64,000 bases of DNA, taken from Rhodomicrobium vannielii ATCC 17100 (GTDB taxonomy: Bacteria > Pseudomonadota > Alphaproteobacteria > Rhizobiales > Rhodomicrobiaceae). Of this stretch, positions 9,821-37,131 are shown piece after piece. The stretch is from NCBI RefSeq assembly GCF_000166055.1, contig NC_014664.1, positions 558,001 to 622,000 of the forward strand, in the 5' to 3' direction. The position numbers were made by a program, and so were the translations under genes. Every line of letters begins with the position of its first letter. The first letter of the stretch is position 1. Under the pieces are notes generated by a model that made no database searches, was not told the DNA's origin, and saw nothing but the letters and a program-made list of their open reading frames with translations.

Positions 9821-9836
9821 TGGCATGACGCTTGCT
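9821..9836 (+). promoter_or_regulatory. Sigma-54 promoter of the metal-uptake operon
   Basis: TGGCATGACGCTTGCT, with GG and GC separated by exactly 10 bases and a good TTGC -12 element. It implies transcription from about 9848 and supports the fecB1 start at 9921 rather than the open-frame start at 9825. Confidence 0.8.
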
Positions 9837-9920: not shown

Positions 9921-10928
9921 ATGCGATACCGACTGTTCTCCCTTCTCGCCGCCTTGGTCGTCCTGTCGTCAGCGACAGCGAGCGCGGGGGAAGTCGTCGA
10001 CATGAGCGGTCGACAGGTAAGCCTCACGGATCGCCCGGCGCGTGTCTTCGCCGCTATGTCCACCACGACGACGCTTGTCTTGTCGGTTGCCCCCGAACGG
10101 CTGATCGGAACCTATCTCGGCTCAAATTCCAAAGCGGATCGATTCCTTCCGGCAGGCGCACTCGGCAAGCCCCTGATGGAAGTCGCCGGCGTTCAGACCA
10201 TCGACATTGAAAAGGTGGCACAAGCGAAGCCCGACGTAGCCATCTCGCTTGCGGTGCCGGGCATAGGCGACCGGTTCAGGGGCGATATGGCCCGCATCGG
10301 CGTGCCGGTGTTCGAAGTCAAGGCGGAGCGTCTCGAAGACTATCCCGCAGCCTTCCGCAGCCTCAGCACTTTGCTCGGCGAAGCGGAACGAGCCGAAGCA
10401 TGGGCCGCGTTGCTTGAGCGACGGCTCGCAGAGCTCAAGGCTGCTCGCGACGCCATCCCAGCCGCCGCGCGCCGCCGAGTCTATTACGCTGAAAGTCCGA
10501 ACGGCATGACAACGCAATGTGCCAATGCCGCACGCGCCGAGGTGCTCGCACTGGGAGGCGCGATCAACACCGTTCCCTGCTCCGGTCCAACCGGAATGGC
10601 TTTCACCACGACCATCGATCCGGAAATGCTGCTGCTGCTCGACCCGGACATCATAGTCGCGCGCTTTCCCCAGGCGAGAACTGCGTTCATGACGGATACC
10701 CGCTTCCAGAAGCTGCGCGCGGTCAGGGAAGGCCGAATTTTCGTCATTCCCGATCTTCCGTTCAACTGGTTCGACCGACCGCCATCGCATTTCCGGCTGC
10801 TGGGCGCGATCTGGCTGATGGATTGTCTTTATCCGGACCGGACAAAGCCGGATCTGGCGGCTACGACCCGGGAGTTCATGCGCCTGTTTCTGGCGCGCGA
10901 CCTGAGCGCCGATGAACTCGCAAACTGA
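9921..10928 (+). CDS. FecB/TroA-type periplasmic binding protein, first copy
   Basis: A 335-residue class III binding protein for siderophores, cobamides or metal chelates. The signal peptide is MRYRLFSLLAALVVLSSATA with cleavage near ASA-G. The mature start VVDMSGRQVSLTDRPARVFA is the classic opening of FecB-like proteins. Two cysteines near residues 196 and 215 are at matching positions in the second copy (13880), as is the tail motif FNWFDRPPS. It is the first gene of the sigma-54/VnfA-type operon. It has no permease directly behind it; the permease and ATPase at 14923-16783 probably serve both binding proteins. The ligand is unknown; context suggests a vanadium or molybdenum complex. Confidence 0.82.
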   Translation: MRYRLFSLLAALVVLSSATASAGEVVDMSGRQVSLTDRPARVFAAMSTTTTLVLSVAPERLIGTYLGSNSKADRFLPAGALGKPLMEVAGVQTIDIEKVAQAKPDVAISLAVPGIGDRFRGDMARIGVPVFEVKAERLEDYPAAFRSLSTLLGEAERAEAWAALLERRLAELKAARDAIPAAARRRVYYAESPNGMTTQCANAARAEVLALGGAINTVPCSGPTGMAFTTTIDPEMLLLLDPDIIVARFPQARTAFMTDTRFQKLRAVREGRIFVIPDLPFNWFDRPPSHFRLLGAIWLMDCLYPDRTKPDLAATTREFMRLFLARDLSADELAN

Positions 10929-10943
10929 CGGGCGCGCGTTGAT

Positions 10944-11954
10944 ATGCTGGATGCGCTGGACGAGGAACCGGTTTTCCCGGAAGAGGATGACGCCCGCGTG
11001 CGGCGGCGGCTCGATTATCTCGCGCGCCCTTATCCGCCGCTGCAACGCGAAATGCGCCGCAGCATTCATCTTCTTCTGCGCGACGAGCACCGGCGCAGCG
11101 GCCTCGAAGCGGCGTGGTACGTCGCCCGCGTCGGTCCCGCGCAACCCTACGACGACATTGCAGAGGCGACAGACCCCGACACCATCCCCGCGCTGATTTC
11201 CGATCCGGGCCTTGGCGGCATTGCGCGCCAACCCTTCGTCGAACGCTGGCTCGATACGGGCGTTTTCGAACAGCGACAGCAAGTGTTCGCGCGGCGTGAC
11301 TTCACCGAAGCGGGGTTCGCCGACCCGACTGGGCTGTTTCAGGTCGACGGCGCGGGGAGCTGGGTGATCCTCGTCGACAAGACGCGCCTCGCCGGTCGCC
11401 CGATACCGCGAAGCTGGGAGGATCTGCTTCACCCGCAATGGCAAGGCGACATTCTATCGAGCGGGCAGAACGGGGTCGTTCTGGCGTTGCTGCTGGTCAA
11501 TCTCGCGCAGGACTTCGGGCTCGACGGCATGCGCGCCTTCGCCCGTAACGTGCGCGAGGTGCGCGGCGGTGCGGCGATGGCGCGTTACGTCGGCACTGAC
11601 GACCCCCGCAGCGCCGCGATCTGCGTTCTGCCGAATTTCTGGGCGCATACCGTCGTGCGGCGCGACAGGAGCGAGTTGGTCTGGCCGCGGGAAGGCGCCT
11701 ACGCCCCTCCGATCCTGCGCCTGAAGAAGTCGGAGACGACGCCTGCGGCCAACTTCATCGAGGCCTACATCACCGGGAGGGAGTGGGCGGCGCGGATGGA
11801 ATCGGCCCGATGTTTTTCCGTCCGCGACGACGTCCCCGCCGAGCCGCCGGGCGGGGCGCTGCGCTGGATCGGCTGGGAGCGCGCCCGCTCCCTCGACTTC
11901 ACCTACATCCGCGAAACGCTGGTCGCCGCATATCTGAAGGAACGCACGCCATGA
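10944..11954 (+). CDS. Binding-protein homologue without signal peptide (triad 1)
   Basis: A 336-residue protein with the fold signature of type II extracellular binding proteins for iron-like ions: PRSWEDLLHPQWQGDILSSG, then FGLDGMRAFARNV, then a C-terminal RWIGWERARS. It has no signal peptide or membrane segment; the N-terminus is acidic (MLDALDEEPVFPEEDD), so it should stay in the cytoplasm, odd for this family. Its stop overlaps the start of the GTPase gene (ATGA). The minus-strand gene at 21938-23041 is a homologue with the same gene neighbours. A cytosolic metal or oxyanion carrier handing ligand to the GTPase is a plausible role, but this is inference. Confidence 0.72.
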   Translation: MLDALDEEPVFPEEDDARVRRRLDYLARPYPPLQREMRRSIHLLLRDEHRRSGLEAAWYVARVGPAQPYDDIAEATDPDTIPALISDPGLGGIARQPFVERWLDTGVFEQRQQVFARRDFTEAGFADPTGLFQVDGAGSWVILVDKTRLAGRPIPRSWEDLLHPQWQGDILSSGQNGVVLALLLVNLAQDFGLDGMRAFARNVREVRGGAAMARYVGTDDPRSAAICVLPNFWAHTVVRRDRSELVWPREGAYAPPILRLKKSETTPAANFIEAYITGREWAARMESARCFSVRDDVPAEPPGGALRWIGWERARSLDFTYIRETLVAAYLKERTP

Positions 11955-12655
11955 ACCTCATCACGGTCGCGGGGCCGCCATCGGCCGGAAAAACATCGCT
12001 CATCCTGAAGGCGGCGCGCCATCTCCGCGAAGGCGGCCTGAAGGTCGGCGCGGTGAAGTTCGATTGCCTTTCAGGGCGCGACGGCGACCGCTATCGCGCG
12101 GCAGGCATTCCCGTGCTGACCGGCTTTTCGGGCAATTTCTGCCCCGACCACTTCTTCGTCACGAACATCGAGCGCTGTGTCGAGTGGGGACGCAAGCAGG
12201 GCCTAGATTTCCTCGTCAGCGAATCTGCGGGGCTATGCAACCGCTGCGCGCCGCATATTCGCGGCTTCCTCGCAGTTTGCGTGCTCGACAATCTGTCGGG
12301 CATCGATACGCCCGCCAAGGTCGGTCCCATGCTGAAGACCGCCGACCTCGTGGTTGTCACCAAGGGCGACATCGTGAGTCAGGCCGAGCGCGAAGTCTTC
12401 GCCTACCGCGTCCGGCAGGTGAACAGCCGCGCCGATATCATGTTCGCCGACGGCATCACTGGGCAGGGATCGCTGGAGATCGCCATGATGTGGCGCGAAG
12501 CACCATCGGGTACGCCGCTGACAGGCGGGCGCCTGCGCTTTTCGGTTCCGTCGTCGGTGTGCTCCTATTGTTTCGGGCAGACGCGCATCGGCAAGGAATT
12601 TCAGCACGGCATTGTGCGAGAGATGCCGATCGAGGACTTGAATGATGCCCGATGA
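11951..12655 (+). CDS. HypB/UreG-like metal-type GTPase (triad 1)
   Basis: A 234-residue P-loop GTPase of the SIMIBI class. The Walker A loop is GPPSAGKTS (8-16). A CPDH motif at 64-67 occupies the place of the metal-binding CPH of UreG. Next come ESAGLCNRC (91-99), a Walker-B-like segment with CxxC, the guanine-specificity motif TKGD (137-140), and a second CxxC (CSYC, 204-207). Three sets of metal-type ligands fit a metallochaperone such as HypB, UreG or CooC, yet the sequence is none of these. The start at 11951 overlaps the upstream stop. The partner copy at 21243 keeps every motif at the same place. Confidence 0.82.
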   Translation: MNLITVAGPPSAGKTSLILKAARHLREGGLKVGAVKFDCLSGRDGDRYRAAGIPVLTGFSGNFCPDHFFVTNIERCVEWGRKQGLDFLVSESAGLCNRCAPHIRGFLAVCVLDNLSGIDTPAKVGPMLKTADLVVVTKGDIVSQAEREVFAYRVRQVNSRADIMFADGITGQGSLEIAMMWREAPSGTPLTGGRLRFSVPSSVCSYCFGQTRIGKEFQHGIVREMPIEDLNDAR

Positions 12656-13625
12656 AATCGAAATCCTCGACAAGACTGCCGAAGCATTCCTTGCCGCACG
12701 GGGCTTCCCGCCCGTCAGCGAGCATCGCAAGCTCGAAGCTTACTGGGCCGCGCTGCCTTGGGAGTTTCGCGATACCTGCGGCTGGACGCTCGAAACGCTT
12801 CGGCAGGGGCTGCGAGACTATCGCGCCGCCGAGCGCGAGGGCGCTGCCTCGCTTTCCGTCGAGCGGCTCGACGTGCTGCCAGGCCGGAGCAAGTCGGGCG
12901 AACCTGAGTCCTTCAGCCTGACGTTCAGGCCCGGCGACGTGACGGCCATCGTCGGCCCCACCGGCTCGGGAAAAAGCCGCCTGCTCGGCGATATCGAGTG
13001 TCTCGCGCAGGGCGATACGCCATCCGGGCGCGTGGTGCTCGTCGATGGCGGCAAGCCCGACCGCAAGACGCGCTTCACGGCCGAGGGGCGGCTCGTGGCG
13101 CAAATTACGCAGAACATGAACTTCGTGATGGACCTCGAAGTCGAGACGTTCTTGCGCCTTCATGCTGAAAGCCGTGGATCGCAAACGCCGGATACAGCCG
13201 CCGCCGATGTCCTCGAAGCGGCCGTTTCTATGGCGGGTGAGGCCTTCACCGGCAAGACGCCGCTGACGCAGTTGAGCGGCGGCCAGTCGCGCGCGCTGAT
13301 GATCGCAGGTGCGGCGCTGCTCAGCCCGAAGCCAATCGTGCTGCTGGATGAGATCGAGAACGCAGGCGTCGACCGCGCCCGCGCGTTGGCGCTGTTCACC
13401 GACCGGGGCAAGATCGTTCTGCTTTCAACGCATGATCCGCTGACGGCGCTGTCGGGAAGCCGCCGCATCGTGATCCGCAACGGAGGTATCGCCGCAATTC
13501 TGGAGACGACGGACGAAGAGCGCGGTTACGCGGAAGTCCTCCTGCGCAGGGAGCAGCGCCACAACGCCTTGCGTAACGCGATGCGTTCCGGCACGCCGCT
13601 CGCGCAGGCGTGGCAGGAGCTTTGA
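12642..13625 (+). CDS. Orphan soluble ABC ATPase (triad 1)
   Basis: A 327-residue single ABC domain behind a ~75-residue helical N-terminal region. Motifs: Walker A GPTGSGKS, Q-loop QNMNFVMD, signature LSGGQ, Walker B IVLLDEIENAG and H-loop STHDP. The DEIENAG continuation is unlike ordinary importers (DEPxxxLD). No permease partner is adjacent, so it may act as a soluble mechanical or assembly ATPase, as AtwA-like ABC proteins do in methanogen cofactor activation; that comparison is by analogy only. It overlaps the GTPase gene by 14 bp. The minus-strand copy at 20225 shares the motifs but has a different N-terminal region. Confidence 0.8.
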   Translation: MMPDEIEILDKTAEAFLAARGFPPVSEHRKLEAYWAALPWEFRDTCGWTLETLRQGLRDYRAAEREGAASLSVERLDVLPGRSKSGEPESFSLTFRPGDVTAIVGPTGSGKSRLLGDIECLAQGDTPSGRVVLVDGGKPDRKTRFTAEGRLVAQITQNMNFVMDLEVETFLRLHAESRGSQTPDTAAADVLEAAVSMAGEAFTGKTPLTQLSGGQSRALMIAGAALLSPKPIVLLDEIENAGVDRARALALFTDRGKIVLLSTHDPLTALSGSRRIVIRNGGIAAILETTDEERGYAEVLLRREQRHNALRNAMRSGTPLAQAWQEL

Positions 13626-13745
13626 CGCCCGTTTCATCCGTATGCCGCGCAAGATCGCCACGCTTGCCCGCCGCCGTCGCGCGGCTGCGGCATTAGGTCA
13701 AGCGTCGACTTGGCTGTTCATTTTGCGCTCTATGATGTATCAGAA

Positions 13746-13805
13746 CGTATATAGCTTTCGGGATGTGTAACGGTCATTCGGCCTACACACACACGGACCG
13801 AATGA
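13746..13805 (+). promoter_or_regulatory. Possible leader: half Mo-box and inverted repeat before fecB2
   Basis: CGTATATAGCT (13746-13756) matches one arm of a ModE box but lacks a convincing second arm. TCATTCGG (13774-13781) pairs with CCGAATGA (13798-13805) to form a hairpin. No sigma-54 promoter with correct spacing was found here, so fecB2 may have its own weak promoter or be read through from the upstream operon. Confidence 0.3.
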
Positions 13806-13879: not shown

Positions 13880-14926
13880 ATGTGCGCCCGACCGAAAAAA
13901 TCCGCGTTCTTCCGCGCGGCGGCCCTTTCCCTGTGCCTGGCGTTGGCTGGTCTGCAAGCGACCCAGACGGCCTCGGCGCGCGAAATCGTCGATATGTCAG
14001 GGCAGAAGCTCACCGTGCCGGACGACATCCGAAGCGTCTACGCGATGACGCACGCCATGCCGCTTCTGGTGGCGCTTGCGCCCGATCTGATGGCGGGCTT
14101 TGCCATGCCGGTTGCGCCCCGACCGGACGTTTTCCGTTTCCTGCGGCCAGAAATGGCGAAGCTGCCCAATCTCGGCGGCGGCCCGAACGTCAACCTCGAA
14201 AAGCTCAAGGATGTCGGCGTTCAGGTGGCGCTTGGCTGGACGAGCCCGAGCGAGCAGTTCCCCGCGAAGAAATACACCCGTATCGATATTCCGGTTGTGA
14301 ACATCGAGGTCGACAAGCTGGCGCTCTATCCGGCGTCCTTCCGCTTTCTGGGCACGCTCTTCCATCGCGAGGCGCGTGGCGAGGAACTGGCGCGCGGGCT
14401 TGAAGAGACGGTGGCGGCCGCGAAAGCCGCAACGCAAGACATCCCCGACGCTGAAAAGCCGAAGATTTATTATGCCGAATCCGTCGACGGCCTCGTCTCG
14501 CAGTGCGACACGTCCGACCGCTCCGAGGTCATTACGCTCGCGGGCGGCATCAACGCGCTTCACTGCACCGGCCCCGTATCGATGAAGGACAATTATCCGA
14601 TCGACATCGAAAAGCTTCTCACCGTCGACCCGGACGTGATCGTGACCCGCTTCCCGCAGACGGCGAAGACCATTCAAGCGGACCCGCGTTGGGCTGGGCT
14701 CAAGGCGGTGAAGACGGGCCGCGTTTACGCCGTGCCGGGATACCCATTCAACTGGTTCGACCGGCCGCCGTCCTTCATGCGGGCGATGGGCGCGCGGTGG
14801 CTGGCGGCGAAGCTCCATCCCGAACGCTGTGCCTTTGATCTCCGGGGCGAGACGAAGAAATTCTATACGCTGTTCTTCGGCGTGACGCCGACCGACGCCG
14901 ATCTCGACCTGCTGTTTGCCCAGTGA
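13880..14926 (+). CDS. FecB-type periplasmic binding protein, second copy
   Basis: A 348-residue binding protein with signal peptide (basic MCARPKK, then AAALSLCLALAGLQATQTA, cleavage at ASA-R) and the mature start EIVDMSGQKLTVPDD. It resembles the protein at 9921: both have YYAES, a QC...C pair and FNWFDRPPS. The start is set by AAGGA eight bases upstream; the open frame extends back to 13763 without a signal peptide. Its stop overlaps the permease GTG (GTGA). It delivers its ligand to the permease/ATPase encoded next. Confidence 0.87.
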   Translation: MCARPKKSAFFRAAALSLCLALAGLQATQTASAREIVDMSGQKLTVPDDIRSVYAMTHAMPLLVALAPDLMAGFAMPVAPRPDVFRFLRPEMAKLPNLGGGPNVNLEKLKDVGVQVALGWTSPSEQFPAKKYTRIDIPVVNIEVDKLALYPASFRFLGTLFHREARGEELARGLEETVAAAKAATQDIPDAEKPKIYYAESVDGLVSQCDTSDRSEVITLAGGINALHCTGPVSMKDNYPIDIEKLLTVDPDVIVTRFPQTAKTIQADPRWAGLKAVKTGRVYAVPGYPFNWFDRPPSFMRAMGARWLAAKLHPERCAFDLRGETKKFYTLFFGVTPTDADLDLLFAQ

Positions 14927-16002
14927 GCGAAGCCGGAATTTCGACCACGCGGGTGCGTAAAGCCGCGCCGCTTCTTCGCGCTCCCGCATTCGCCGCGCTG
15001 GGCTGGACAGCCCTGCTTGCACTTGTGCTTGCTGTCGCGGTGATCGGTGCGCTCGGCATCGGCAGATATCATGTCGAAAGTGGCGAGATCGTCACCTTTC
15101 TGCTCGCCACGGTGGGGCTCGCGGACATGCCCGCCGAACGCTATGCCACGCTTCAAAACGTGATCGTGGATATAAGGCTGCCGCGTATCGCAGCGGCGGT
15201 GCTGGTCGGCGCGGCGTTGGCTTCGTCGGGCGCGGCGTTTCAGGCGGTTTTCCGCAATCCGCTGGTGTCGCCTGGGCTGCTTGGAGTGCTTGCGGGCGCG
15301 TCGTTCGGGGCCGCGCTCGGCATCGTTCTCGATGCGTCATGGGGCGGAATCCAGTGGCTCGCCTTCTTGATGGGGCTTGCGGCGGTGGCTATCGGCGTCG
15401 GCATCGCGTCAATGTTCGCAGGCGCGTCGCTCATCATGCTCGTACTCGGCGGCATGATTTCCAGCGCGCTTTTCGCGTCGCTCCTCTCCATCGTGAAATA
15501 CGTCGCGGACCCGATGAACCACCTGCCCAACATCGTTTACTGGCTGATGGGAAACCTCGGGCAGTCGGACCTTGGTCAGGTGACGCTTCTCGCATGGCCG
15601 ATGGTCGCGGGTATCGTCACGCTTTCGCTACTGGGCCGGTCGCTCGATGTGCTGTCCATGGGCGACGACGAGGCCCGCAGTCTCGGACTTCCCGTGACCA
15701 CCATCCGCTACGGAACGATTGCACTGGCGACGCTCGTTTCTGCGCTGACCGTGTCAATGGCCGGAATGATCGGCTGGGTGGGGCTCATCATCCCGCACAT
15801 CGCCCGGCTCGCGCTCGGAGCCAGCAACACGCGGCTGATACCGGCGAGCGCCTTGATGGGGGCAATCTTCCTTGTCGCCACGGACGCGCTCTCGCGCACG
15901 GTGATGGACGCGGAAATACCGATCGGCATCCTGACCGAGCTGCTCGGCATTCCGGTTTTCCTGCTGGTGCTCGGTCGAAGCTGGCGAGGCTGGCGTGAAT
16001 AG
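14923..16002 (+). CDS. FecCD-family ABC permease
   Basis: A 359-residue inner-membrane permease of the BtuC/FecCD family with the expected 9-10 helices. Family motifs include DIRLPRIAAAVLVGAALASSG near the N-terminus, FRNPLVSPGLLGVLAGASFG, and the conserved MIGWVGLIIPHIARL near the end. Start is GTG overlapping the fecB2 stop. It would import a siderophore-like metal chelate or cobamide together with the ATPase and one or both FecB proteins. Neighbours and the Mo-box ahead of the TonB receptor point to a Mo or V complex; haem, B12 and iron cannot be excluded. Confidence 0.9.
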   Translation: MSEAGISTTRVRKAAPLLRAPAFAALGWTALLALVLAVAVIGALGIGRYHVESGEIVTFLLATVGLADMPAERYATLQNVIVDIRLPRIAAAVLVGAALASSGAAFQAVFRNPLVSPGLLGVLAGASFGAALGIVLDASWGGIQWLAFLMGLAAVAIGVGIASMFAGASLIMLVLGGMISSALFASLLSIVKYVADPMNHLPNIVYWLMGNLGQSDLGQVTLLAWPMVAGIVTLSLLGRSLDVLSMGDDEARSLGLPVTTIRYGTIALATLVSALTVSMAGMIGWVGLIIPHIARLALGASNTRLIPASALMGAIFLVATDALSRTVMDAEIPIGILTELLGIPVFLLVLGRSWRGWRE

Positions 16003-16783
16003 CGCGAGGCAGCTCACCGCAGAGGGCATCGTCTTTCGGCGTGGACGCAGGCGCGTGCTTGACGGCGCGACCCTGGCTTTCAGCGGTGGTGAAATCGTCT
16101 CGCTGCTCGGCAGCAACGGAGCGGGAAAGACGACCTTGCTGCGCATCATGCTCGGGCTTGTCGCGCCGGACGAAGGCAGCGTCAAACTCGACGGTGTCCC
16201 TATCGCGCACCTCAGGAGACGCGAACTTGCCCGGCGGATCGCCTATGTTCCGCAAGGCCATCACGCGCCTTTCCCGTACCTCGTTCGCGAAGTCGTCGCG
16301 CTCGGACGGTTTCCGACTCAAGGGTTCTTCGGTCGAACCGTTTCCGCCGACGCGACGGCGGTCGAAGCGATCCTCGCGAATCTCCGCATCGCTCACCTCG
16401 CAGACCGGACCTACACGCATCTTTCGGGCGGCGAGCGTCAACTCGTCATGATCGCGCGGGCACTGGCGCAAGATGCGTCGCTCCTCGTCATGGATGAACC
16501 GCTGAGCGGCCTCGATTACGGCCATCAGATCGAATTGCTTCGCAGCCTCCGCGACCTCGCGGCCCAAGGCTTCGGCATCCTGATGACGACGCATCACCCC
16601 GACCAGGCTCTTATGGTTTCGACGCGCATTGCGACGCTGATCGACGGTCGCATCGACAGCGACGGCGCGCCGCGCGATGTGATCACCCCGGAGACAATCC
16701 AGCGGCTCTATGGCGTTACGCTCGCGCCGGACGAGATCCACGCACAGGGCTTGCTGGCCAGCGTTTCACCGAACGGTAAATAG
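15995..16783 (+). CDS. FecE/BtuD-type ABC transporter ATPase
   Basis: A 262-residue ATPase with Walker A GSNGAGKTT, Q-loop YVPQGH, signature LSGGERQ, Walker B LLVMDEPLSGLD and H-loop TTHHPDQ. It is full length and overlaps the permease gene by 8 bp, with a GTG start. It completes the FecB-C-E importer and, unlike the two orphan ABC proteins in this window, has the canonical DEPLSGLD sequence. About 135 bases separate it from the TonB receptor, which has its own regulatory site. Confidence 0.9.
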   Translation: MNSARQLTAEGIVFRRGRRRVLDGATLAFSGGEIVSLLGSNGAGKTTLLRIMLGLVAPDEGSVKLDGVPIAHLRRRELARRIAYVPQGHHAPFPYLVREVVALGRFPTQGFFGRTVSADATAVEAILANLRIAHLADRTYTHLSGGERQLVMIARALAQDASLLVMDEPLSGLDYGHQIELLRSLRDLAAQGFGILMTTHHPDQALMVSTRIATLIDGRIDSDGAPRDVITPETIQRLYGVTLAPDEIHAQGLLASVSPNGK

Positions 16784-16853
16784 CATTCAGAAAACGCATG
16801 GCTGATGTGACCCCAGCTTGGCCTAGACCTCAAGATTTTGACACAATAGCGCG

Positions 16854-16903
16854 TTGACAGACGCCCCTCCTTTTTTAAAAGTTATATCGGGCAGTATATA
16901 ACT
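16854..16903 (+). promoter_or_regulatory. Mo-box (ModE-type operator) over the TonB receptor promoter
   Basis: AGTTATAT-N8-ATATAACT at 16880-16903 is a perfect dyad and fits the ModE/MopA/MopB consensus (GTTATATA-type arms, 24 bp in all). TTGACA at 16854-16859 is a likely -35 element; the -10 would overlap the left arm. Binding of molybdate-loaded ModE should block transcription, so the receptor would be made only when Mo is scarce. Confidence 0.8.
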
Positions 16904-16918
16904 TGGTGGGATAACAAC

Positions 16919-19246
16919 GTGAATAAGGCATTATTTTCTCTTGCAGAAATGCAGGAGATCAAGGGGCGTGCGCGCCTTCTCGTGACGGTTTCGGCGCTTG
17001 CACTCGGGTTCGGTTTGGCGTCTTCGGCATCGGCGCAGGATGCGCAGATCCTTCCGCCCGTACGGGTCACGACACCGGCGGATGCTCCGAAGAAGGTGAA
17101 ACGGCAAGCGCCGCAAACTGCATCCGTCGATCGGAGCCTGGGCCAAGACCAAGGGCAGGGCGGACAAGGCGGTGAGGCGCGGCAGGGCGGCGATTCCGGC
17201 CCGAGCGGCTTCACTCCGCAAACGGCCTCGATCGGACCTTTCGCGAACGTCAAACTTCTCGACACGCCCTATTCCATCGACGTTGTCGATCAGAAGGTGC
17301 TCGACAACCAGCAAGTTCGCAGCCTCGATCAGGCGCTGAAATATGTCCCATCGGCCCAACTCGAACCGCGCGGCGGTATCGACGTGGGGCGCCCTCAGTC
17401 GCGCGGCTTTGAAGGCGACACCTTCGCCAACACGCGCCTCGACGGCATGAACATCTTTGCCGTGACCGCGCAGCCGCTTGAGATGATCGACCATATCGAG
17501 GTCGTCAACGGTCTCACGGGTGCGTTCTACGGCCCGGCGAACCCCGCCGGCATGTTCAATTTCGTGGCGAAGCGGCCGACGGATTATTTCCTGAACGAAT
17601 TCACGACCGGCTATTCGACAAACGGCGGCTGGCTTTCCCATGCCGATGTCGGCGGGCGTGTCGGCCCGAACGGCTTCTTCGGTTACCGCCTGAACTTCGT
17701 GAATGAAGAGGGGAGCGGCTACGTTTCGACGAGCCATCTCGACCGCAAGCTCGCCTCGGGCGCGTTCGACTTCCGCTTTTCGAACAATACTGTGCTTGAA
17801 GTGAACGCGAGCTACTACAACTACCAGAAGTCCGGCTACCCGGGCGGGTTCTCGGTGCCGAACTACTTTTCGAATGTCCCCACGAGCATTCAGCTTCCGA
17901 AGCTCGATCCCACGCAAGCGGGCTACGGGCAAGAATTCACCTCATCGCGCTATGAGGTCGATACGGAAAGCGCCAAGATCAAGCACGACTTCGGCAACGG
18001 CTGGAACCTGACGGCGGGCGTCCTTCACAACCGAACGGATCGCTTCTTCTCATCGGTCTCGAACGCCATCTCCGCCGATGGAACGAAGTTCACGCAAAGC
18101 CTGTCCGCCAATCCGGCCACCCCGCCTGCTCGCACGGATGCGTTCAGCAACACTGCAAATCTGAACGGCAAGCTCGACACCTACGGCATCGGCCACGAGG
18201 TGGTTCTTGGCACGACCGGCTATCGGACAGAGGCGTATAGTTCTCCCCAAACCAGCGCGTTGACGAAAACTCTCGTCACAAATCGGGATATTTACGATCC
18301 GCTTGAGGTGGCTCCGATCTACATTCCGGGACGTCCGCCGATGTACAAGAGTTCGGACGGATGGCAGCAGAGCGTGATCGTCGGCGACACCATCACCTTG
18401 AATCGCTATTTCTCGGCAATGGCGGTGGGCAGCTATAGCTGGATCGGCTCGCACGGCTACAACGCCAGCGGCGTTCAGACGAGCGAAACCTATACGGACG
18501 GTTTCAGTCCGACCGCAGCGCTGATGTTCAAGCCGCTTCAGAATATCACGACTTACGTGGCCTACGCCGACAGTCTGCAAAAGGGCGATACGCTCACGGC
18601 GGGCGGCGTAACCCGGACGCTTGACCCGTATCGCAGCGAACAATACGAGGCGGGCGTCAAAGCGAAGCTCGGCGGCATCGACGCGCGCGTCGCGATATTC
18701 CAGATCGAGCGCCCCTTCGCCTATGTCGATGGCACCGTCGTTAATGAAGCGGGTAACCAGCGAAATCAGGGCGTCGAATTTCAGGCGGGTGGACAGGTCT
18801 ACGAGAATATCCATTTGCTCACAGGCGTGACGTTCCTCGACCCGAAGCTCCTTGATGCGGTCGATCCGAATGCCGAGGGCAAGCAGATCATCGGCGTGCC
18901 CGAAGTTCAGGCCAACATCCTCGTGGAATACTATGTGCCGTGGGTCGAAAACCTCGTGGCCAGCGCCAACGTGCATTATGTGGGAGAGCGTGCGGTGAAC
19001 AACGTGAACACGTCATGGGCCGATGCTTTCACAACCGTCGATCTCGGCGCGCGCTATGAAACGGAGGTTTTCGGCCGAAAGACCACACTGCGGCTGAACG
19101 TCAACAACGTGTTCGACGAAAAATCTTGGGCGGCGGTCATGCCGGGCAGCATCATCGGCGACCCGGGCACAGCTACAAAGGGTGCTAACACGGCTTTTCT
19201 TGGCTCCCCGCGCGAAGTTGTGTTCACCGGCACGGTTCGCTTCTAG
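16919..19246 (+). CDS. TonB-dependent outer-membrane receptor for a siderophore-like ligand
   Basis: A 775-residue receptor starting at GTG, with GGTGGG upstream and an extended signal peptide ending ASAQ. A TonB-box-like LPPVRVT follows, then a Gly/Gln-rich linker, a plug domain (DTPYSIDVVDQKVLDNQQVR, SRGFEGD, GLTGAFYGPANPAGMFN) and a 22-strand barrel ending in VVFTGTVRF with the terminal Phe. The plug is of the FhuA/FpvA class; there is no N-terminal signalling (STN) domain. Together with the FecB-C-E importer it can bring a chelated metal through both membranes. The Mo-box makes molybdate or vanadate complexes with catecholates attractive ligands, as in Azotobacter; this is inference. Confidence 0.9.
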   Translation: MNKALFSLAEMQEIKGRARLLVTVSALALGFGLASSASAQDAQILPPVRVTTPADAPKKVKRQAPQTASVDRSLGQDQGQGGQGGEARQGGDSGPSGFTPQTASIGPFANVKLLDTPYSIDVVDQKVLDNQQVRSLDQALKYVPSAQLEPRGGIDVGRPQSRGFEGDTFANTRLDGMNIFAVTAQPLEMIDHIEVVNGLTGAFYGPANPAGMFNFVAKRPTDYFLNEFTTGYSTNGGWLSHADVGGRVGPNGFFGYRLNFVNEEGSGYVSTSHLDRKLASGAFDFRFSNNTVLEVNASYYNYQKSGYPGGFSVPNYFSNVPTSIQLPKLDPTQAGYGQEFTSSRYEVDTESAKIKHDFGNGWNLTAGVLHNRTDRFFSSVSNAISADGTKFTQSLSANPATPPARTDAFSNTANLNGKLDTYGIGHEVVLGTTGYRTEAYSSPQTSALTKTLVTNRDIYDPLEVAPIYIPGRPPMYKSSDGWQQSVIVGDTITLNRYFSAMAVGSYSWIGSHGYNASGVQTSETYTDGFSPTAALMFKPLQNITTYVAYADSLQKGDTLTAGGVTRTLDPYRSEQYEAGVKAKLGGIDARVAIFQIERPFAYVDGTVVNEAGNQRNQGVEFQAGGQVYENIHLLTGVTFLDPKLLDAVDPNAEGKQIIGVPEVQANILVEYYVPWVENLVASANVHYVGERAVNNVNTSWADAFTTVDLGARYETEVFGRKTTLRLNVNNVFDEKSWAAVMPGSIIGDPGTATKGANTAFLGSPREVVFTGTVRF

Positions 19247-19515: not shown

Positions 19516-19659
19516 TGTGCTTCCTTTCGATTATACGGGCGCCCGCAGGAGCGTCAGCGCGTCCTGTATGGGCGGGGATACAACCGAAACTCAAATGGCG
19601 GGTGCCGGTTCCGGCGGTCGCGATCAACGGCGTAGAGCGGAAGACTGCAACCCACCCGC

Positions 19660-20208
19660 CTAAAGCATCCGCACATAAGCGGATGCATCGACGACCGGCG
19701 CGGGCGCGGGCTCTTCCTTCGGCGTGCCCAGATAAAGGAAGCCCACGATCTGGTCCTTCTCGCCAAGCTCAAGCAGGTGATGCAGGTTGCGGTCGAACAT
19801 CGCCCAGCCGGAGCGCCAGATGCCGCCGAACCCCTGCGCCACCGCTGCCATCTGCATCGCCATGACGGCGCAACCCGCCGTAAGTTGTTGCTCGAACAGA
19901 TGAACGACGTCGCTCTCGCGCGCCTTGGCCACCACCACGATGACGAGCGGCGCGCGCAGCGGCATTTTGGGCGCGCGCTTCACGATCTCCTCGCTCTTGC
20001 CCGATGCTTTCGCCGCCACCTCCATCAGCGCGCCGAGGCGCGCAAGTCCATCGCCCCTGGCAACGATGAACTCATACGGCCGCAAGTGCTGGAAGTCGGG
20101 CACGCGAAGCGCCGCCTTCAGGATCGCATCGAGCGCCTCGCCTTCTGGAGCGGGTTCGGTCAGCGCAGAACAGGAGCGGCGTTCGTGAAGCAGCTTCAGC
20201 GCGTCCAT
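19660..20208 (-). CDS. Nitroreductase-family flavoprotein, YdjA-like
   Basis: A 182-residue FMN-dependent oxidoreductase of the short YdjA type: LLHERRSCSALTEPAPEGE at the start binds FMN phosphate; LRPYEFIVARGDG and the GFGGIWRSG loop (family motif GxGxxWxSG) follow. Length matches YdjA (183). The start at 20208 is preferred because AAGGGA precedes it; the in-frame ATG at 20238 lies inside the ABC gene. It follows the orphan ABC ATPase by 17 bp, so it belongs to the triad-2 operon. A redox role in metal or cofactor handling is possible but unproven. Confidence 0.8.
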   Translation of the reverse strand: MDALKLLHERRSCSALTEPAPEGEALDAILKAALRVPDFQHLRPYEFIVARGDGLARLGALMEVAAKASGKSEEIVKRAPKMPLRAPLVIVVVAKARESDVVHLFEQQLTAGCAVMAMQMAAVAQGFGGIWRSGWAMFDRNLHHLLELGEKDQIVGFLYLGTPKEEPAPAPVVDASAYVRML

Positions 20209-20224
20209 GCATAATCCCTTCTTT

Positions 20225-21253
20225 TCAATCCTTCGCAAGCAAACCGGCCCACGCCAGCGGCGCGTCGATGCGCTCGCCGCTGCGCAGGCGGTGCCTCAAG
20301 GCCATCAGTTCGCAGTCGATCCGTTCGAGCACCGCGAGGTTCGCGCGCTCGTCAGCCCCCGTTTCGATGACGCCTGCGACCGCCCCATTTCTCACGGCGA
20401 TTCGCCTCGTCCCCATCAGCGCAAGAATCGGATCATGCGTCGAGATGAGAACGATTTTTTCGCTCGCGATCAACAGGTCGAGCGAGCGCTTCCTGTCGAT
20501 GCCCGCATTTTCGATCTCGTCGATAAGCACCACGGGGGAAGCAGAAAGAAGTGCCGTGTCGGCGATCATCAGCGCACGGCTCTGCCCACCGCTCAACTGC
20601 GTCAACGACACGGCCGCGGAGAAGCTCTCGCCTGCGAGTTCGTTCGCGCAGGCAATTACTTCGTCCACGATACGGTCGCGGTCCTCGACCATGCGGCAGT
20701 CGGCGTGCATCGCCACGAACTCGCCCACGGTGAGGTCGACCACGAAATTCATGTTCTGCGAAAGCTGCGCGATGAGCTTTCGATCCGACGCATAGCGCCA
20801 GGATGGGTCCGGCGCTTCGCCATTGACCAGCACGCGGCGGCGGGACGGCGTATCGCCCTGCGCAAGACACTCGATGTCGGCGAGAAGGCGGCTCTTGCCG
20901 GACCCCGTCGGCCCGACGATGCACAGCACGTCGCCCGCGCGAAGTTCGAGATCGAGGCGCTCGGCTTCGCCCTTCTTGTCGCGTCCGCCGAGGATCGTCA
21001 GCGAGCGCACTGTGACCTGAGAAGGAGCCTTCAGCGCTTCCACCTGTTCTGCGAGCGCCACGATATGAGAGAGCAGTTGTTCGCGCCCCATGCCGATGTC
21101 GGAAAGCCGCTCGTCGGTGAGCGAGGCTAGCCACGAGGCGACCGTTCGCGATGGCTTCGCGCCCTCGCCGCCCGTCTGGGCGAGGAGGTCGGCAAAAGCC
21201 GGGTGCGTGCGCGTCAGGTCTCCAAGCGTGAGCATCAGCGGATCAACCTTCAT
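20225..21253 (-). CDS. Orphan soluble ABC ATPase (triad 2)
   Basis: A 342-residue homologue of the protein at 12642. The ABC domain has Walker A GPTGSGKS, QNMNFVVD, signature LSGGQ, Walker B VVLIDEIENAG and H-loop STHDP, the same unusual DEIENAG line as copy 1. The first ~90 residues form a separate helical region (LTLGDLTRTHPAFADLLAQT) that vaguely recalls ScdA/DUF1858-type N-terminal domains but lacks their cysteines. No permease is adjacent. It overlaps the GTPase gene by 11 bp. Role inferred as ATP-driven step in metal or cofactor handling. Confidence 0.8.
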   Translation of the reverse strand: MKVDPLMLTLGDLTRTHPAFADLLAQTGGEGAKPSRTVASWLASLTDERLSDIGMGREQLLSHIVALAEQVEALKAPSQVTVRSLTILGGRDKKGEAERLDLELRAGDVLCIVGPTGSGKSRLLADIECLAQGDTPSRRRVLVNGEAPDPSWRYASDRKLIAQLSQNMNFVVDLTVGEFVAMHADCRMVEDRDRIVDEVIACANELAGESFSAAVSLTQLSGGQSRALMIADTALLSASPVVLIDEIENAGIDRKRSLDLLIASEKIVLISTHDPILALMGTRRIAVRNGAVAGVIETGADERANLAVLERIDCELMALRHRLRSGERIDAPLAWAGLLAKD

Positions 21254-21947
21254 GTCCGGCGCATCCGAAGGTCATCTTGCGGACATTGCCGCGCTGATAG
21301 TCCTCGCCGATGACCGTTTCGCCGATGCAGTAAGGACATACGGCGGACGGCATCGGAAAGCGCAGGCGGCGCCCTTCGAGGCGTTCGATGCTCTGCGCGG
21401 CTTCGAGGCGATGCGCAAGTTCGCCCGCCCCCTGTCCGGTGATGCCGTTGAAGAACAGGATGGTCGCACGCGGATTGGCGAGCCGGACGTTGAACGCGAA
21501 AACCTCGCGCTCGGCCTGGCTCACGATGTCGCCCTTGGTGATGACGACGATGTCGGAGAGCTTCAGCATCGGCCCGATCTTCTTCGGCGTATGCACGCCC
21601 GAGAGCGCGTCCACCACGCAGACGGCGAGCGTGCCTTGCACGTGGGGCGAGCAGCGGTTGCACAGCCCCGCGCTTTCCGCGATCAGCATGTCGAGCGCCT
21701 GATCGCGGCCCCAGCCGAGGCAATCGTCGATGTTGCTGACGAAGAAATGGTCCGGGCAGACATTGCCCGCGAGGCCCACCGTCACCGGCAGCCCTGCGCG
21801 CTGATAGAGCTTGTCGTCGGATGTCGACAGCGAGTCGAACTTGACGATGCCGACGCGCTGGCCGGGCCTGTTCAGAAGTTCGGCCGTCTTGAGGATGACG
21901 GCGGTCTTGCCGACAGACGGCGGTCCCGCAACGGTGATCACGCGCAT
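21243..21947 (-). CDS. HypB/UreG-like metal-type GTPase (triad 2)
   Basis: A 234-residue paralogue of the GTPase at 11951, the same length. Walker A GPPSVGKT (8-15), CPDH (64-67), ESAGLCNRC (91-99), guanine motif TKGD (137-140) and a C-terminal CxxC (CPYC) are all kept, whereas intervening sequence has drifted. A further cysteine occurs in the tail (FGCAGHEG). Conservation of the possible metal ligands between diverged copies argues that they matter. It overlaps its neighbours on both sides, so the three proteins are probably made in step. Confidence 0.83.
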   Translation of the reverse strand: MRVITVAGPPSVGKTAVILKTAELLNRPGQRVGIVKFDSLSTSDDKLYQRAGLPVTVGLAGNVCPDHFFVSNIDDCLGWGRDQALDMLIAESAGLCNRCSPHVQGTLAVCVVDALSGVHTPKKIGPMLKLSDIVVITKGDIVSQAEREVFAFNVRLANPRATILFFNGITGQGAGELAHRLEAAQSIERLEGRRLRFPMPSAVCPYCIGETVIGEDYQRGNVRKMTFGCAGHEG

Positions 21948-23041
21948 GGCAGAAACTCCTTTCGCGCGGCAGCCGCCGCATCCTGCGCCGCTTCAAAGGC
22001 GCGGCACGCGGCCTTGATGACTTCGCCCGTCGAACGATGACGGACGAAATCCCAGCCGATCCATTTGAAGCGCGCGCCGGGCGGCAAACGCGGCGCGACA
22101 CCCGGCGCAAGCGCGGGATAGCGGTTGGCGTTGAGCGTGCGGGCGAGCGCGTCGCCGTGAAAATAGTCGACGAGCGGCGCCACGGCATTCGCGCGGGCCG
22201 CCTTGACGGTGAGCCACAGCGGGTAGGCGAGCGCGCCGTCTTCGGGCCAGACGACCTGCGTGCGGTCGCGGCGCGGGCACATGTCGGCCATAGACCACGG
22301 CAGCACGTAGATGCCGCCCATCGAAGCGTCGGTTCCGGCAAGGCGCGGCATCTGCGCAGAATGCATCAGCCCTGGCACGTTCGCGACGAGGCGGCGCACG
22401 CCATCGAGCCCGAACTCCTTCGCCATCGCGAGCAGGAAGAACTTGTTGTAGGCGCTGTAGCGGCGCTGATCCTCGCGCTTCCAGCCGCCGAAGACGACTT
22501 GTCCGCGATAGTCCGGCTCCATCAGGTCGGCCCATCGGCGGGGCACGGGGAGGGAGCCGATCTGCGTGCGGTCGATCAGGAGCACGAACGGCGCGACCGC
22601 ATAGACGCCGATGAACCCTTTCGGATCGACGAGGCCGCAGTCGGCGAATACATCCGCCACGCCGTCCGGCTGGCAGGACGCGAACGCACCCCGCTCCACG
22701 AACTCCGCCTGAAAGCGCCGGTTGAAGATGTTGCCGTGTTCCGCCGAGACGATCATGTTGGGATAGTCGGCTAGATCGCGGATGAAACGCAGCCGGTCGA
22801 AAGGCGTTTCTCCGCCGCGCCCGTGCGGGAAGCAGCATTTGAGCGGACGGCCTCCGGCGGCGAAGTGCTCGATCACCCGCGCCTCGACGCCGTCATGGAT
22901 GCGATGGCGCAGCGGCACCGGAACATTGCCGAGGAAGTCCCACACCTTCGGCGCTCCCACCGCTTCGGCGGCGTGGCCGAACAGTGCGCTCGGCGGGGCC
23001 ATGTCTTCGAGGATGGTGGAAGCGCTGGTGAGCACACCCAT
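21938..23041 (-). CDS. Binding-protein homologue without signal peptide (triad 2)
   Basis: A 367-residue homologue of the protein at 10944. Shared features: PRRWADLMEPDYRGQVVFGG, FGLDGVRRLVANV, a CPRRDRTQVVWPEDGALAYP stretch matching VRRDRSELVWPREGAYAPP, and a C-terminal KWIGWDFVR. It has no signal peptide. The N-terminal third is longer than in copy 1 and includes LKCCFPHGRGGETPFDR, with adjacent cysteines and a histidine that could be ligands. GGAAAG precedes the ATG. It heads its own transcript from the sigma-54 promoter at 23096. Confidence 0.75.
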   Translation of the reverse strand: MGVLTSASTILEDMAPPSALFGHAAEAVGAPKVWDFLGNVPVPLRHRIHDGVEARVIEHFAAGGRPLKCCFPHGRGGETPFDRLRFIRDLADYPNMIVSAEHGNIFNRRFQAEFVERGAFASCQPDGVADVFADCGLVDPKGFIGVYAVAPFVLLIDRTQIGSLPVPRRWADLMEPDYRGQVVFGGWKREDQRRYSAYNKFFLLAMAKEFGLDGVRRLVANVPGLMHSAQMPRLAGTDASMGGIYVLPWSMADMCPRRDRTQVVWPEDGALAYPLWLTVKAARANAVAPLVDYFHGDALARTLNANRYPALAPGVAPRLPPGARFKWIGWDFVRHRSTGEVIKAACRAFEAAQDAAAAARKEFLPCA

Positions 23042-23095
23042 TGACTATTCTTTCCACTTCGCCAACTGGCAAACGCTTTCAATGCGTTGAGTACA

Positions 23096-23110
23096 GCAAG
23101 GGTCGTGCCA
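23096..23110 (-). promoter_or_regulatory. Sigma-54 promoter of triad 2
   Basis: On the minus strand TGGCACGACCCTTGC, a textbook -24/-12 element with GG-N10-GC. It lies about 55 bp before the first triad-2 gene. Confidence 0.88.
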
Positions 23111-23141: not shown

Positions 23142-23185
23142 GTACCGGAGCGAACGAAACGACGCCGTCGTGTACCGCCACGCAC
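23142..23185. promoter_or_regulatory. VnfA-type activator sites of triad 2
   Basis: GTAC-CGGAGC-GAAC (23142-23155) and the weaker GTAC-CGCCAC-GCAC (23172-23185), 30 bp apart as at 9691/9721. They lie 35-75 bp upstream of the -24 element. Confidence 0.6.
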
Positions 23186-26428: not shown

Positions 26429-26457
26429 TCGGCTCACTCCTGTATTGATGACGATAC

Positions 26458-26473
26458 AGCAATGAATGTGCCA
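26458..26473 (-). promoter_or_regulatory. Sigma-54 promoter of vnfENX
   Basis: On the minus strand TGGCACATTCATTGCT, exact GG-N10-GC with consensus TGGCAC and TTGC. It lies about 30-45 bp before the vnfE ATG. Confidence 0.9.
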
Positions 26474-30529: not shown

Positions 30530-31960
<1,431 letters not shown>

Positions 31961-31962
31961 CC

Positions 31963-33781
<1,819 letters not shown>

Positions 33782-35422: not shown

Positions 35423-36244
35423 CTACATCTGACCCAAAAAATGCCGCCGGAGCCGTGCGCCGAGGATCGTGATCAGCGTGACGAGCACGAGCAGCACGAT
35501 GATCAGCGCCATCGCCTCGCGATACTCGAACAGGTTGAACGCGGTGATGATTTCGAGGCCGAGGCCTCCCGCACCCACGACGCCGAGCGTCGTCGCCGCG
35601 CGGAGATTATGCTCCCAGCGGTAAAGTGTGACGTCGACCAGTTGCGGCAGAATTTGCGGCACGACGGAAAAGCGCAGCACGCCGAGCTTCGACACGCCGT
35701 GGCTCTTGAGCGCGTTACCGGGGCCGGGGTCCACGTGCTCCATGGTTTCGGCGTAGAACTTGCCGAGCATGCCGGTCGAATGCGTGGCAAGCGCGAGGAC
35801 GCCGGGGAGCGGTCCGAAGCCAACCGCCGCGACGTAGATCACGCCCCAGATCAGGCCGGGGATCGAGCGCAGCATATTCAGCACGAAGCGAACCGGCACG
35901 TTGATGAAGTTGCTCCGCGTCACGTTGCGCGCGCCGAGCGCCCCCAGCGGCAAGGCCATGCACACGCCAAGCACGGTGCCCGCGACGCTCATCGACAGCG
36001 TTTCGAGAAGCGGCTTGCCCCAGCTTTGCCAGCGGCTGAAGTCGGGCGGAAACGCATCCGACGCGAGCTTCAGGATCGTGGGAATGGCGTCGGCGTAGCG
36101 CTTCGGATTCAGCGCGCCCGCATAGAGGAAGGCGGCAAGGATCACGACTGCCAGCGCCGCTCCGGTGAGGATCGCGGCGCGCAGCTTGCGGCGGCTATCC
36201 GCGAGAATAGCCGCCATCTCGGGCCGAAGGGCCTCTGCCGTCAT
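35423..36244 (-). CDS. phnE: PhnE-type ABC permease
   Basis: A 273-residue permease of phosphonate/phosphite importers with about six helices. The binding-protein-dependent transport motif is VVGAGGLGLEIITAFNLFEY; LETLSMSVAGTVLGVCMALP and FVLNMLRSIPGLIWGVIYVA are typical of PhnE. The start overlaps the phnD stop (ATGA). Together with phnD and phnC it makes a complete importer. No phosphonate-degradation gene lies nearby. Confidence 0.9.
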   Translation of the reverse strand: MTAEALRPEMAAILADSRRKLRAAILTGAALAVVILAAFLYAGALNPKRYADAIPTILKLASDAFPPDFSRWQSWGKPLLETLSMSVAGTVLGVCMALPLGALGARNVTRSNFINVPVRFVLNMLRSIPGLIWGVIYVAAVGFGPLPGVLALATHSTGMLGKFYAETMEHVDPGPGNALKSHGVSKLGVLRFSVVPQILPQLVDVTLYRWEHNLRAATTLGVVGAGGLGLEIITAFNLFEYREAMALIIVLLVLVTLITILGARLRRHFLGQM

Positions 36245-37131
36245 TGAGGTGCCGGGATCGCTTCGGGGTTGGCGTTCTTGATCGCGTCCATCCAGGTGCG
36301 GACGCGATCCACGTCGGAATCGACGGCCGGGATGAAGGCTTCGGCGCGGAACACCTTCAGCGCTTCAGGGTCGTTCACGCTGGTGAACGCCTTGCGGATT
36401 TCCTCGCGGAACTCGGGATCGAGGCCCTCGCGGAACGTCCACATATATTCGGGGATCGGCGGCGAAAGTTCGAGAATGCGCGTGGCGTCCTTGTCGATCT
36501 TGCCCTCTTTCAGAAGGCGCTGGTAGATCGGGTAGGAAAGCCCGCCAGCCGCAACCTTCTTGTTCACGACCGCGAGCGCCACGGCGTCATGCGCGCCAAG
36601 CACGCGAAGCTGGTAGTCTCGGCCCGAAACGAGGCCCGCCGCCAGAAGCTGGTACCGCGGAACCCATGTGCCAGATGTCGACGCCGGGTCGCCGAACGCG
36701 ATTTCGCCGCCCTTGAGGTCCGCGAGCGTCTTCGCGGGGCTGTCAGCCGGCACGATGACGACGGCCTGAAAGGTCGGGCCGACGACAGCGTGCGAGGGCC
36801 GCGCGAAGGGTTCGAGCTTGGCGCTTCGGGCACGGAGCAGATACGTCACCGGGCCGAGATAGGCGATGTCGAGGCGGCCGAAACGCAGCGCCTCGCCGGT
36901 GGCGGCGTAGTTGGCGCCGACGACCAGTTCCACGGGGATGTTCAGTTTCTTTTCAAGATAGGCGCGCAGCGGCTCGTTGAGGCGCATTACGGTTGGCGCG
37001 GACTCGCCGGGGAGGAGGCCCACGACAAGTTTCTCGGGGCGGGGCGACTGTGCGGCCGCCGTCATTACGCCGCCGATGAGCATGGCGGCTGCCATCGCAA
37101 GTTTTGCGATGAGTGCAGGTGTTTTAAGCAT
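36241..37131 (-). CDS. phnD: PhnD-type periplasmic binding protein
   Basis: A 296-residue binding protein with a signal peptide (MLKTPALIAKLAMAAAMLIG, cleavage near AAAQ). Features of PhnD/PtxB are LVVGLLPGESAPTVMRLNEP, GRLDIAYLGPVTYLL, and GEIAFGDPASTSGTWVPRYQ, the anion-binding Ser/Thr loop. The start is set by GAGGAG; the open frame continues upstream through phnC in another sense. Ligand could be phosphonate, phosphite or, given the neighbours, a phosphate mimic such as vanadate; only the class is certain. Confidence 0.9.
   Translation of the reverse strand: MLKTPALIAKLAMAAAMLIGGVMTAAAQSPRPEKLVVGLLPGESAPTVMRLNEPLRAYLEKKLNIPVELVVGANYAATGEALRFGRLDIAYLGPVTYLLRARSAKLEPFARPSHAVVGPTFQAVVIVPADSPAKTLADLKGGEIAFGDPASTSGTWVPRYQLLAAGLVSGRDYQLRVLGAHDAVALAVVNKKVAAGGLSYPIYQRLLKEGKIDKDATRILELSPPIPEYMWTFREGLDPEFREEIRKAFTSVNDPEALKVFRAEAFIPAVDSDVDRVRTWMDAIKNANPEAIPAPQ

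Follow-up and report, generated by a model that had tools for sequence, protein, structure and literature searches.

The subject of this analysis is a four-gene segment, positions 13880-19246, of a 64,000-nucleotide stretch of the Rhodomicrobium vannielii ATCC 17100 genome (bases 558001-622000 of a single contig of 4,014,469 bases; this stretch is hereafter the window, and features within it are given in its own numbering). The segment encodes a TonB-dependent receptor and a FecB-C-E importer, and we consider it probable, albeit by no means assured, that the receptor, the binding protein FecB2 and a MolBC-type FecC-FecE pair constitute a molybdenum-scavenging path through both membranes that is controlled by ModE. 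An open reading frame check found all four genes open and on the plus strand: FecB2, a periplasmic binding protein of the MolA-like class (13880..14926; Pfam Peripla_BP_2), the permease FecC (14923..16002; FecCD, 265 bits), the ATP-binding cassette (ABC) ATPase FecE (15995..16783; Pfam ABC_tran), and the receptor, of a siderophore-type family (16919..19246; Plug and TonB barrel domains). The FecB2 start was placed at the ATG at 13880, which yields a signal peptide as judged by eye, and the longer frame from 13763 yields none. A sequence-only reading of this DNA had claimed a receptor and a FecB-C-E importer here, and four intact genes with family matches bear this out; its notion of a two-membrane metal path is also supported, as receptor, binding protein, permease and ATPase are all in place, with the metal and its chelated form deduced from sequence.

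The proposed molybdenum control is evident in the form of two Mo-boxes. Mo-box 1 (GTTATATCGGGCAGTATATAAC; 16881..16902, plus strand) matches GTTATAT-N8-ATATAAC with 0 mismatches, ends 16 bases before the receptor start codon, and is the sole 0-mismatch match in the entire genome, and Mo-box 2 (GATGTATCAGAACGTATATAGC; 13734..13755, plus strand), upstream of FecB2, has 1 mismatch to the degenerate pattern GYTRTAT-N8-ATAYARC. When the intergenic regions were shuffled 200 times, neither box was equalled, and the core pattern, at up to 2 mismatches, was found once in the window against an expected 0.07. At up to 1 mismatch the degenerate pattern occurs at 11 sites genome-wide, four of which fall inside the window (p about 2e-5), and seven of which precede the receptor, FecB2, modA (genome position 138930, 1 mismatch; modA is named by NCBIfam), a 68-residue TOBE (Mop-like) gene (142090, 1 mismatch), vnfE, a second TonB receptor and a small minus-strand frame; the sites before modA and the Mop-like gene serve as an internal check on the motif. 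Another lies at 1423424, 142 bases before a frame that resembles, by eye, a secreted methyltransferase, and three further sites lie at 1819666, 1990753 and 2717924. At up to 2 mismatches there are 57 genome sites versus 39 for the reversed pattern, many of those listed being one repeated sequence. The genome also holds, at about 3794082-3795149, a ModE-like frame in which HTH_1 is joined by two TOBE domains (ModE_repress 92.3 bits, slightly below the cut-off of 98.5); the marks of a ModE regulon are thus all present: promoter-region Mo-boxes, like sites ahead of mod genes, and a ModE-like protein. Upstream of FecB2 and the receptor, sites for Fur, RirA, Irr, VnfA and NifA were no better than in shuffles. 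The sequence-only reading envisaged a single Mo-box-controlled path, of which the Mo-boxes stand and the single unit does not, since the receptor, which starts 135 bases past FecE behind an upstream region and a Mo-box of its own, forms a unit apart.

The importer itself has a recognizable kinship. Among solved chains searched with phmmer, FecC is closest to HI1471/MolB (2nq2_A, 208 bits), followed by FhuB (175), the hemin permease 5b57 (147), HmuU (145) and BtuC (at most 124), and is as such closer to MolB than to the iron, haem or B12 permeases. A FecB profile built from nine relatives places 4pag first (375 bits), then 4ovk and 4hn9, and then MolA (165), below which come YiuA (120), BtuF (78), IsdE (76) and FhuD (52); by the profile and by VIA-align, MolA is, among the matches listed, the nearest binding protein of known ligand, with 4pag, 4ovk and 4hn9 nearer still. 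FecB2 as a single sequence likewise finds 4pag as its best solved match (196 bits), and its predicted model (predicted local distance difference test, pLDDT, 86.8) gives Z scores of 34.2 to 4pag, 27.1 to MolA (3psa), 24.7 to YiuA and 19 to BtuF. FecE, which matches FhuC at 143 bits and HI1470 (MolC) at 120, does not discriminate. Judged by the match of FecC to HI1471 and by the FecB profile, the importer belongs with the Haemophilus MolBC-A system. These comparisons also bear on cobalamin or haem as the substrate, an explanation we find hardly credible: BtuC and haem-transporter models do occur among the general matches, but every one falls under its curated cut-off, no cobalamin riboswitch scores over threshold in the window, and the genes carry Mo-boxes. 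Uptake of haem or B12 was rejected on the sub-cut-off scores and the absent riboswitch match.

The gene neighbourhoods of the importer's relatives were surveyed in a census. The FecB profile matches in 24 of 385 alphaproteobacterial genomes and in 7 of 61 relatives, our own genome being in both counts, and a two-row FecB alignment search of contigs gave 6 loci. Twenty-six non-own FecB loci were fetched, comprising 20 of the 24 non-own alphaproteobacterial places (the four weakest, in G351, G274, G178 and G292, were left out) and all 6 non-own ones from the relatives set. FecB, FecC and FecE are held by 22 of these; the dropped loci were L089 (a 3.9-kb contig), L111 (a 10-kb contig with no permease found), and L125 and L126 (no FecC or FecE match). 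Genes for ModA, TupA/TupB, Mop or ModE adjoin 14 of the 22 complete loci versus 0 of 20 control stretches (14 of 26 if the dropped loci are counted as misses), and the relatives' loci contain 7 Mo-boxes with at most 1 mismatch over 457 kb, the controls none over 390 kb. A receptor was detected in 3 of the 22 relatives versus 1 of the 20 controls, both being lower bounds obtained with eight receptor query sequences. In a deltaproteobacterial relative (L075), FecB-C-E lies near ModABC-like genes and near genes for a ModE-like helix-turn-helix protein and a TOBE protein. FecB2 matched 31 plasmid records. In the three that were opened, FecB-C-E stands next to TonB receptors (Bartonella sp. HY328, Paracoccus aminovorans) or to an MsrPQ pair (Azospirillum argentinense); MsrP is a molybdoenzyme.

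Several features of the census define how these counts should be read. The 22 genomes are non-independent, as G075, G364 and G286 belong to one genus (no Mo/W gene) and G135 and G318 to one genus (both with such genes). Some of the 13 Mo/W reference proteins came from census loci, as did two of the eight receptor queries, and locus L109 was matched by its own reference proteins only. As controls, 20 stretches of 19.5 kb were picked by hand at round positions; they came from 18 of the 22 genomes, two of which gave two each. The stretches for G388 and G387, both joined, spanned 35 kb and 40 kb, and those for all other loci between 13 and 20 kb. As to the references, four ModA were named by NCBIfam, TupA and TupB were named under equivalog cut-offs, TOBE was over cut-off in both Mop references and in Mop from L110 and L114, and the ModE of G388 had HTH_1 and TOBE over cut-off. 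The ModE-like proteins of L075 and L120 had, respectively, HTH_1 only and HTH_1 under cut-off, and the two ModB references had the general ABC-permease domain only; no locus was scored on these alone.

The census also informs the view that the importer takes up tungsten or mixed oxyanions without any chelate, with the receptor having a different function that is switched on, too, when molybdenum is lacking. This view draws on the TupA/TupB neighbours in several relatives and on the detection of a receptor in so few of them, yet receptor and importer occur together in genomes G387 and G388 and are also paired in G266 and in the Bartonella and Paracoccus records named above, and in R. vannielii both units bear Mo-boxes. 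We regard it as very improbable.

The receptor scores 280.9 bits against TIGR01783, above the cut-off of 223.5, which makes it a member of that siderophore family, and its best solved matches are FemA (184 bits) and BauA (142). Close matches to it occur in 2 of 31 relatives and 4 of 385 alphaproteobacterial genomes, our own genome again counted in both. Such a receptor is what would be expected if the segment were an iron path under molybdenum control, in which ferric siderophore uptake is induced without molybdenum since alternative nitrogenases need more iron. The fold class of the binding protein is common to iron proteins as well, and in Foldseek the iron-binding YiuA draws level with MolA (E 3.8e-17 and 1.5e-17, respectively, template modelling score 0.70 for both). 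Nevertheless, we deem an iron path unlikely, given that no Fur, RirA or Irr-like site lies above chance before the genes, that the linkage of importer relatives to Mo/W genes described above extends to genomes without alternative nitrogenases, and that the permease is closest to MolB. A second TonB receptor in the same genome (about 3778115-3780505, minus strand; L129 11116-13506) has a 1-mismatch Mo-box (3780574) about 70 bases upstream, and is 35-36% like receptors that adjoin FecB in G073 and G285.

The window also holds vnfD (30542-31960, plus strand; VNFD 966.6 bits, cut-off 823.1) and vnfK (32384-33781, plus strand; best family 833 bits, slightly below the 874 cut-off), and the genome has AnfD besides. 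The sequence-only reading had proposed vanadophore or molybdophore uptake, and it is reasonable to ask whether the four genes import a vanadium chelate for V-nitrogenase, as the vnf genes adjoin, derepression without molybdenum coincides with the need for vanadium, and FecB1, the sister of FecB2, lies in a unit with VnfA-type sites. The genomic distribution of the system argues otherwise. The congener G387 has AnfD (1102 bits, cut-off 874) and no VnfD, and carries receptor, FecB, FecE and FecC in that order, respectively 47%, 28%, 53% and 67% like their counterparts here; a Mo-box with 1 mismatch lies 58 bases ahead of the receptor's likely ATG. The congener G388 has no alternative nitrogenase, and carries receptor-FecB-FecC-FecE (FecB 40%, FecC 62%, FecE 55%) adjoining a ModE-like gene; its receptor is a different one, with the Plug domain alone over threshold. 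An alternative-nitrogenase cut-off was passed in 3 of the 29 genomes checked (own included; a few are under 90% complete), namely this one, G385 and G387, and in the latter two the enzyme is AnfD. No VnfD was found in the 28 non-own genomes checked, FecB carriers included, and G043, the other VnfD genome among the 385, has no related FecB at E 1e-25.

As FecB-C-E and a receptor are present in G387 and G388 without VnfD, the permease has been kept without V-nitrogenase, and a vanadium-only role for the four genes was rejected. Neither FecB2 nor the receptor is preceded by a VnfA site above chance, and a VodABC-like transporter is present in the same window; we thus hold a dedicated vanadium chelate path to be decidedly unlikely. 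A kept permease with a varying receptor and binding protein would fit changing chelates around one metal. Taking together the MolBC-A kinship, the linkage of relatives to Mo/W genes and the position of the G388 system beside ModE, molybdenum (or tungsten) appears favoured and vanadium disfavoured for 13880-19246, such that the earlier proposal survives in its molybdenum half and not in its vanadium half.

The sequence of events we postulate for a molybdenum-scavenging path is as follows. When cell molybdate is low, ModE, presumably acting as a repressor, would come off both Mo-boxes, allowing the receptor and FecB2-C-E to be made. The receptor would then carry a molybdenum species, most likely a chelate, over the outer membrane, with the choice of a chelate resting solely on the presence of a TonB-dependent receptor. 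FecB2 would bind the molybdenum species, presumably as delivered by this receptor, and FecC-FecE would import it, upon which refilled ModE would shut the genes off again.

A number of observations weigh against this scheme. The solved protein 4hn9, closer to FecB than MolA is, carries the label of an iron-transport protein, and the Foldseek tie with YiuA noted above blurs the assignment to MolA. In single-sequence searches the lead of MolA is small, at 42.7 versus 37.4 bits for YiuA with FecB2, and 27.4 versus 25.8 bits for BtuF with FecB1. According to passages of PMC4031551, MolBC-A is of low affinity in H. influenzae, which is odd for a scavenger and argues against a simple transfer of role. 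No Mo/W gene was seen in 8 of the 22 relatives, and a Mo-box with at most 1 mismatch occurs in just 4 of the 22 loci; the intergenic region of G388 has no Mo-box better than 4 mismatches. Receptor matches in G158, G256 (two) and G334 had no related FecB or FecC in the stretches fetched. Last, FecB2 is only 28% like the G387 FecB, at 67% likeness between the permeases, and the ligand forms of the two binding proteins may differ.

Upstream of the segment lies FecB1 (9921..10928, plus strand), a sister duplicate of FecB2 with no permease of its own adjoining. The two are 38% identical and are sisters in the tree (support 100/98), in which the FecB1 branch (1.91) is longer than that of FecB2 (1.06) and the placement of long rows is unsure. 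FecB1 is followed by a first copy of a gene triad (10944..13625, plus strand) consisting of an SBP_bac_6-type protein, a HypB/CobW-like GTPase (11951-12655) and an ABC-type ATPase (12642-13625); by eye, no signal peptide is evident in the SBP_bac_6-type triad protein. The FecB1 upstream region shows the reverse of the pattern before FecB2 and the receptor, in that it has a perfect VnfA site but lacks a Mo-box (200 shuffles). Passages of PMC9542535 give the VnfA motif as GT(T/A)C-N6-GTAC, and the plus-strand sites before FecB1 lie at 9691-9704 (one mismatch) and 9721-9734 (perfect GTAC-N6-GTAC, unequalled in 200 shuffles). Across the window 17 VnfA-type motifs occur, where 4.8 would be expected. 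A sigma-54-like -24/-12 site (TGGCATGACGCTTGCT; 9821..9836, plus strand, 1 mismatch) is supported by its position, sigma-54-like sites as a set not being above chance (29 in the window versus 25.3 expected). By these predicted sites FecB1 and the first triad are on the VnfA side, and the 13880-19246 segment has the Mo-boxes. The importer had been described as joined to a VnfA-type operon; this does not hold for FecB2-C-E, the VnfA-type unit being the upstream FecB1-triad (9921-13625).

Vanadium thus has other candidate carriers in the window, namely the FecB1 unit and the VodABC-like set. An arrangement that would reconcile the two regulators, which we think possible though rather unlikely, is that FecC-FecE and the Mo-box receptor open upon molybdenum starvation and the FecB duplicates split the ligand, with FecB2, under ModE, binding molybdenum and FecB1, under VnfA, passing vanadium through the same permease. 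FecB1, made only with VnfA active and encoded ahead of the metal-chaperone-like GTPase/ATPase triad, would then dock on FecC-FecE and pass vanadium, as oxyanion or chelate, on to V-nitrogenase maturation. If this were true, the swapping of binding proteins under metal-specific regulators would set which metal enters.

A second copy of the triad, with a nitroreductase, occupies 19660..23041 on the minus strand (the triad itself 20225-23041), and is preceded by a -24/-12 site (TGGCACGACCCTTGCT; 23095..23110, minus strand, 0 mismatches) and by VnfA-type sites at 23142-23155 and 23172-23185 (1 mismatch each). The GTPases of the two copies are 59% identical. Genome G043 has the block of the second copy in the same order at 60-74% identity. 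A search of 385 alphaproteobacterial genomes at E 1e-30 located the GTPase in two, precisely those whose VnfD scores over cut-off. It is also found in a record of Fusobacterium vincentii, with no nitrogenase match in the stretch read, where the triad binding protein carries a DUF1858 domain; on the strength of this record, the idea that the triad is strictly vanadium-specific was dropped. The PhnCDE-like ABC transporter (35423..37946, minus strand) has PhnE and a PhnD-type subfamily over cut-off, the best PhnC match under it, and Phosphonate-bd.

Among characterized systems, the closest is MolBC-A (HI1470-1472), the molybdate/tungstate type II ABC importer of H. influenzae, which supplies both the nearest solved permease and, among the matches listed, the nearest binding protein of known ligand. 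Passages of PMC4031551 describe molB as repressed by molybdate. The R. vannielii system differs from MolBC-A in its accompanying TonB-dependent receptor, in the Mo-boxes on both units and in its vnf neighbourhood. According to passages of PMC9542535, Azotobacter vinelandii has class B operons of TonB receptor and ABC genes (Avin_30860, 39890, 47130) that depend on VnfA1; that a TonB receptor and ABC parts belong together to the metal response of alternative nitrogenases is, as those passages have it, already known from Azotobacter under VnfA1 and is not new. The resemblance extends to that combination, but the class B operons are described there as activated by VnfA1/sigma-54 without molybdenum and vanadium, whereas the genes here carry Mo-boxes and lack any VnfA site above chance. 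The same source describes a VnfA1-dependent operon, Avin_02430-02400, of binding protein, GTPase, ATPase and nitroreductase, conserved in Proteobacteria with V-nitrogenase. By gene content, the second triad with its nitroreductase equals this operon in content and order, with sigma-54-like and VnfA-type sites; the first, by contrast, is headed by FecB1 and has no nitroreductase after it. VodABC is given in PMC9542535 as the predicted vanadate transporter of A. vinelandii, and the PhnCDE-like set at 35.4-37.9 kb, outside 13880-19246, is of the same kind by type of gene set. No report of a TonB receptor with a MolBC-type importer under Mo-boxes was found in a literature search that excluded most subscription journals, and in the vanadium review PMC13102585 none of the transport terms looked for occurs.

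The crossing of the outer membrane by molybdenum and vanadium complexes is poorly defined in nitrogen fixers. A receptor and MolBC-type importer behind Mo-boxes provide, in a phototroph, a candidate that has a name and can be deleted, and the MolA-like FecB with Mo/W neighbours is a recognizable family by which more may be found. If a molybdenum path is correct, some alphaproteobacterial 'iron ABC transporter' annotations (e.g. in the Azospirillum and Paracoccus records) would in fact denote molybdenum or tungsten importers.

Mo-box-like sites also occur elsewhere in the window, at 26439-26460, 26778-26799, 30362-30383, 30418-30439 and 38051-38072 (1-2 mismatches; vnfE, a vnfA-like gene, vnfD and a PhnC-like gene). 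That at 26439..26460 (minus strand, 1 mismatch) lies between the vnfE start (ATG 26428) and the vnfE -24/-12 site (26458-26473, 0 mismatches), with a 3-base overlap with the latter. Such sites suggest a direct repression by molybdenum of the vnf genes and the VodABC-like set. Those of 2 mismatches, which precede vnfD and the vnfA-like and PhnC-like genes and, in the AnfD region, a NifA-family gene, are weak evidence. A 22-base sequence (GCTATGTCGACATGAAAATAGC), also with 2 mismatches to the Mo-box pattern, is present in many copies across the genome and is probably part of a repeat element. Just past the receptor, a small minus-strand frame of about 70 residues (about 19303-19515) has a -10-like TATAAT and a 1-mismatch Mo-box (19563-19584) upstream.

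In the deltaproteobacterial loci L073, L074 and L075, FecB lies near FmdE, DUF364/DUF4213 heavy-metal chelation proteins and S-adenosylmethionine (SAM) methyltransferases, the types varying by locus; TonB receptors and TonB/ExbB-like genes are also found in these neighbourhoods, and FecC-FecE in L074 and L075. These clusters could be metallophore or metal-handling islands. Passages of PMC2954224 state that most FmdE members adjoin metal-ion transporter genes. The sequence-only reading saw no siderophore biosynthesis gene in the DNA it had; elsewhere in the R. vannielii genome, in the AnfD-cluster stretch, a 1359-residue frame with AMP-binding, carrier and hexapeptide-transferase domains (about 3652169-3656248; L037 170-4249, minus strand) is a candidate source of a chelator, or of something else. 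Finally, a 291-residue frame near a tRNA gene (38646-39521, minus strand) gave Cas3-like matches (type I-G Cas3 and Cas3 HD), all below curated cut-offs.

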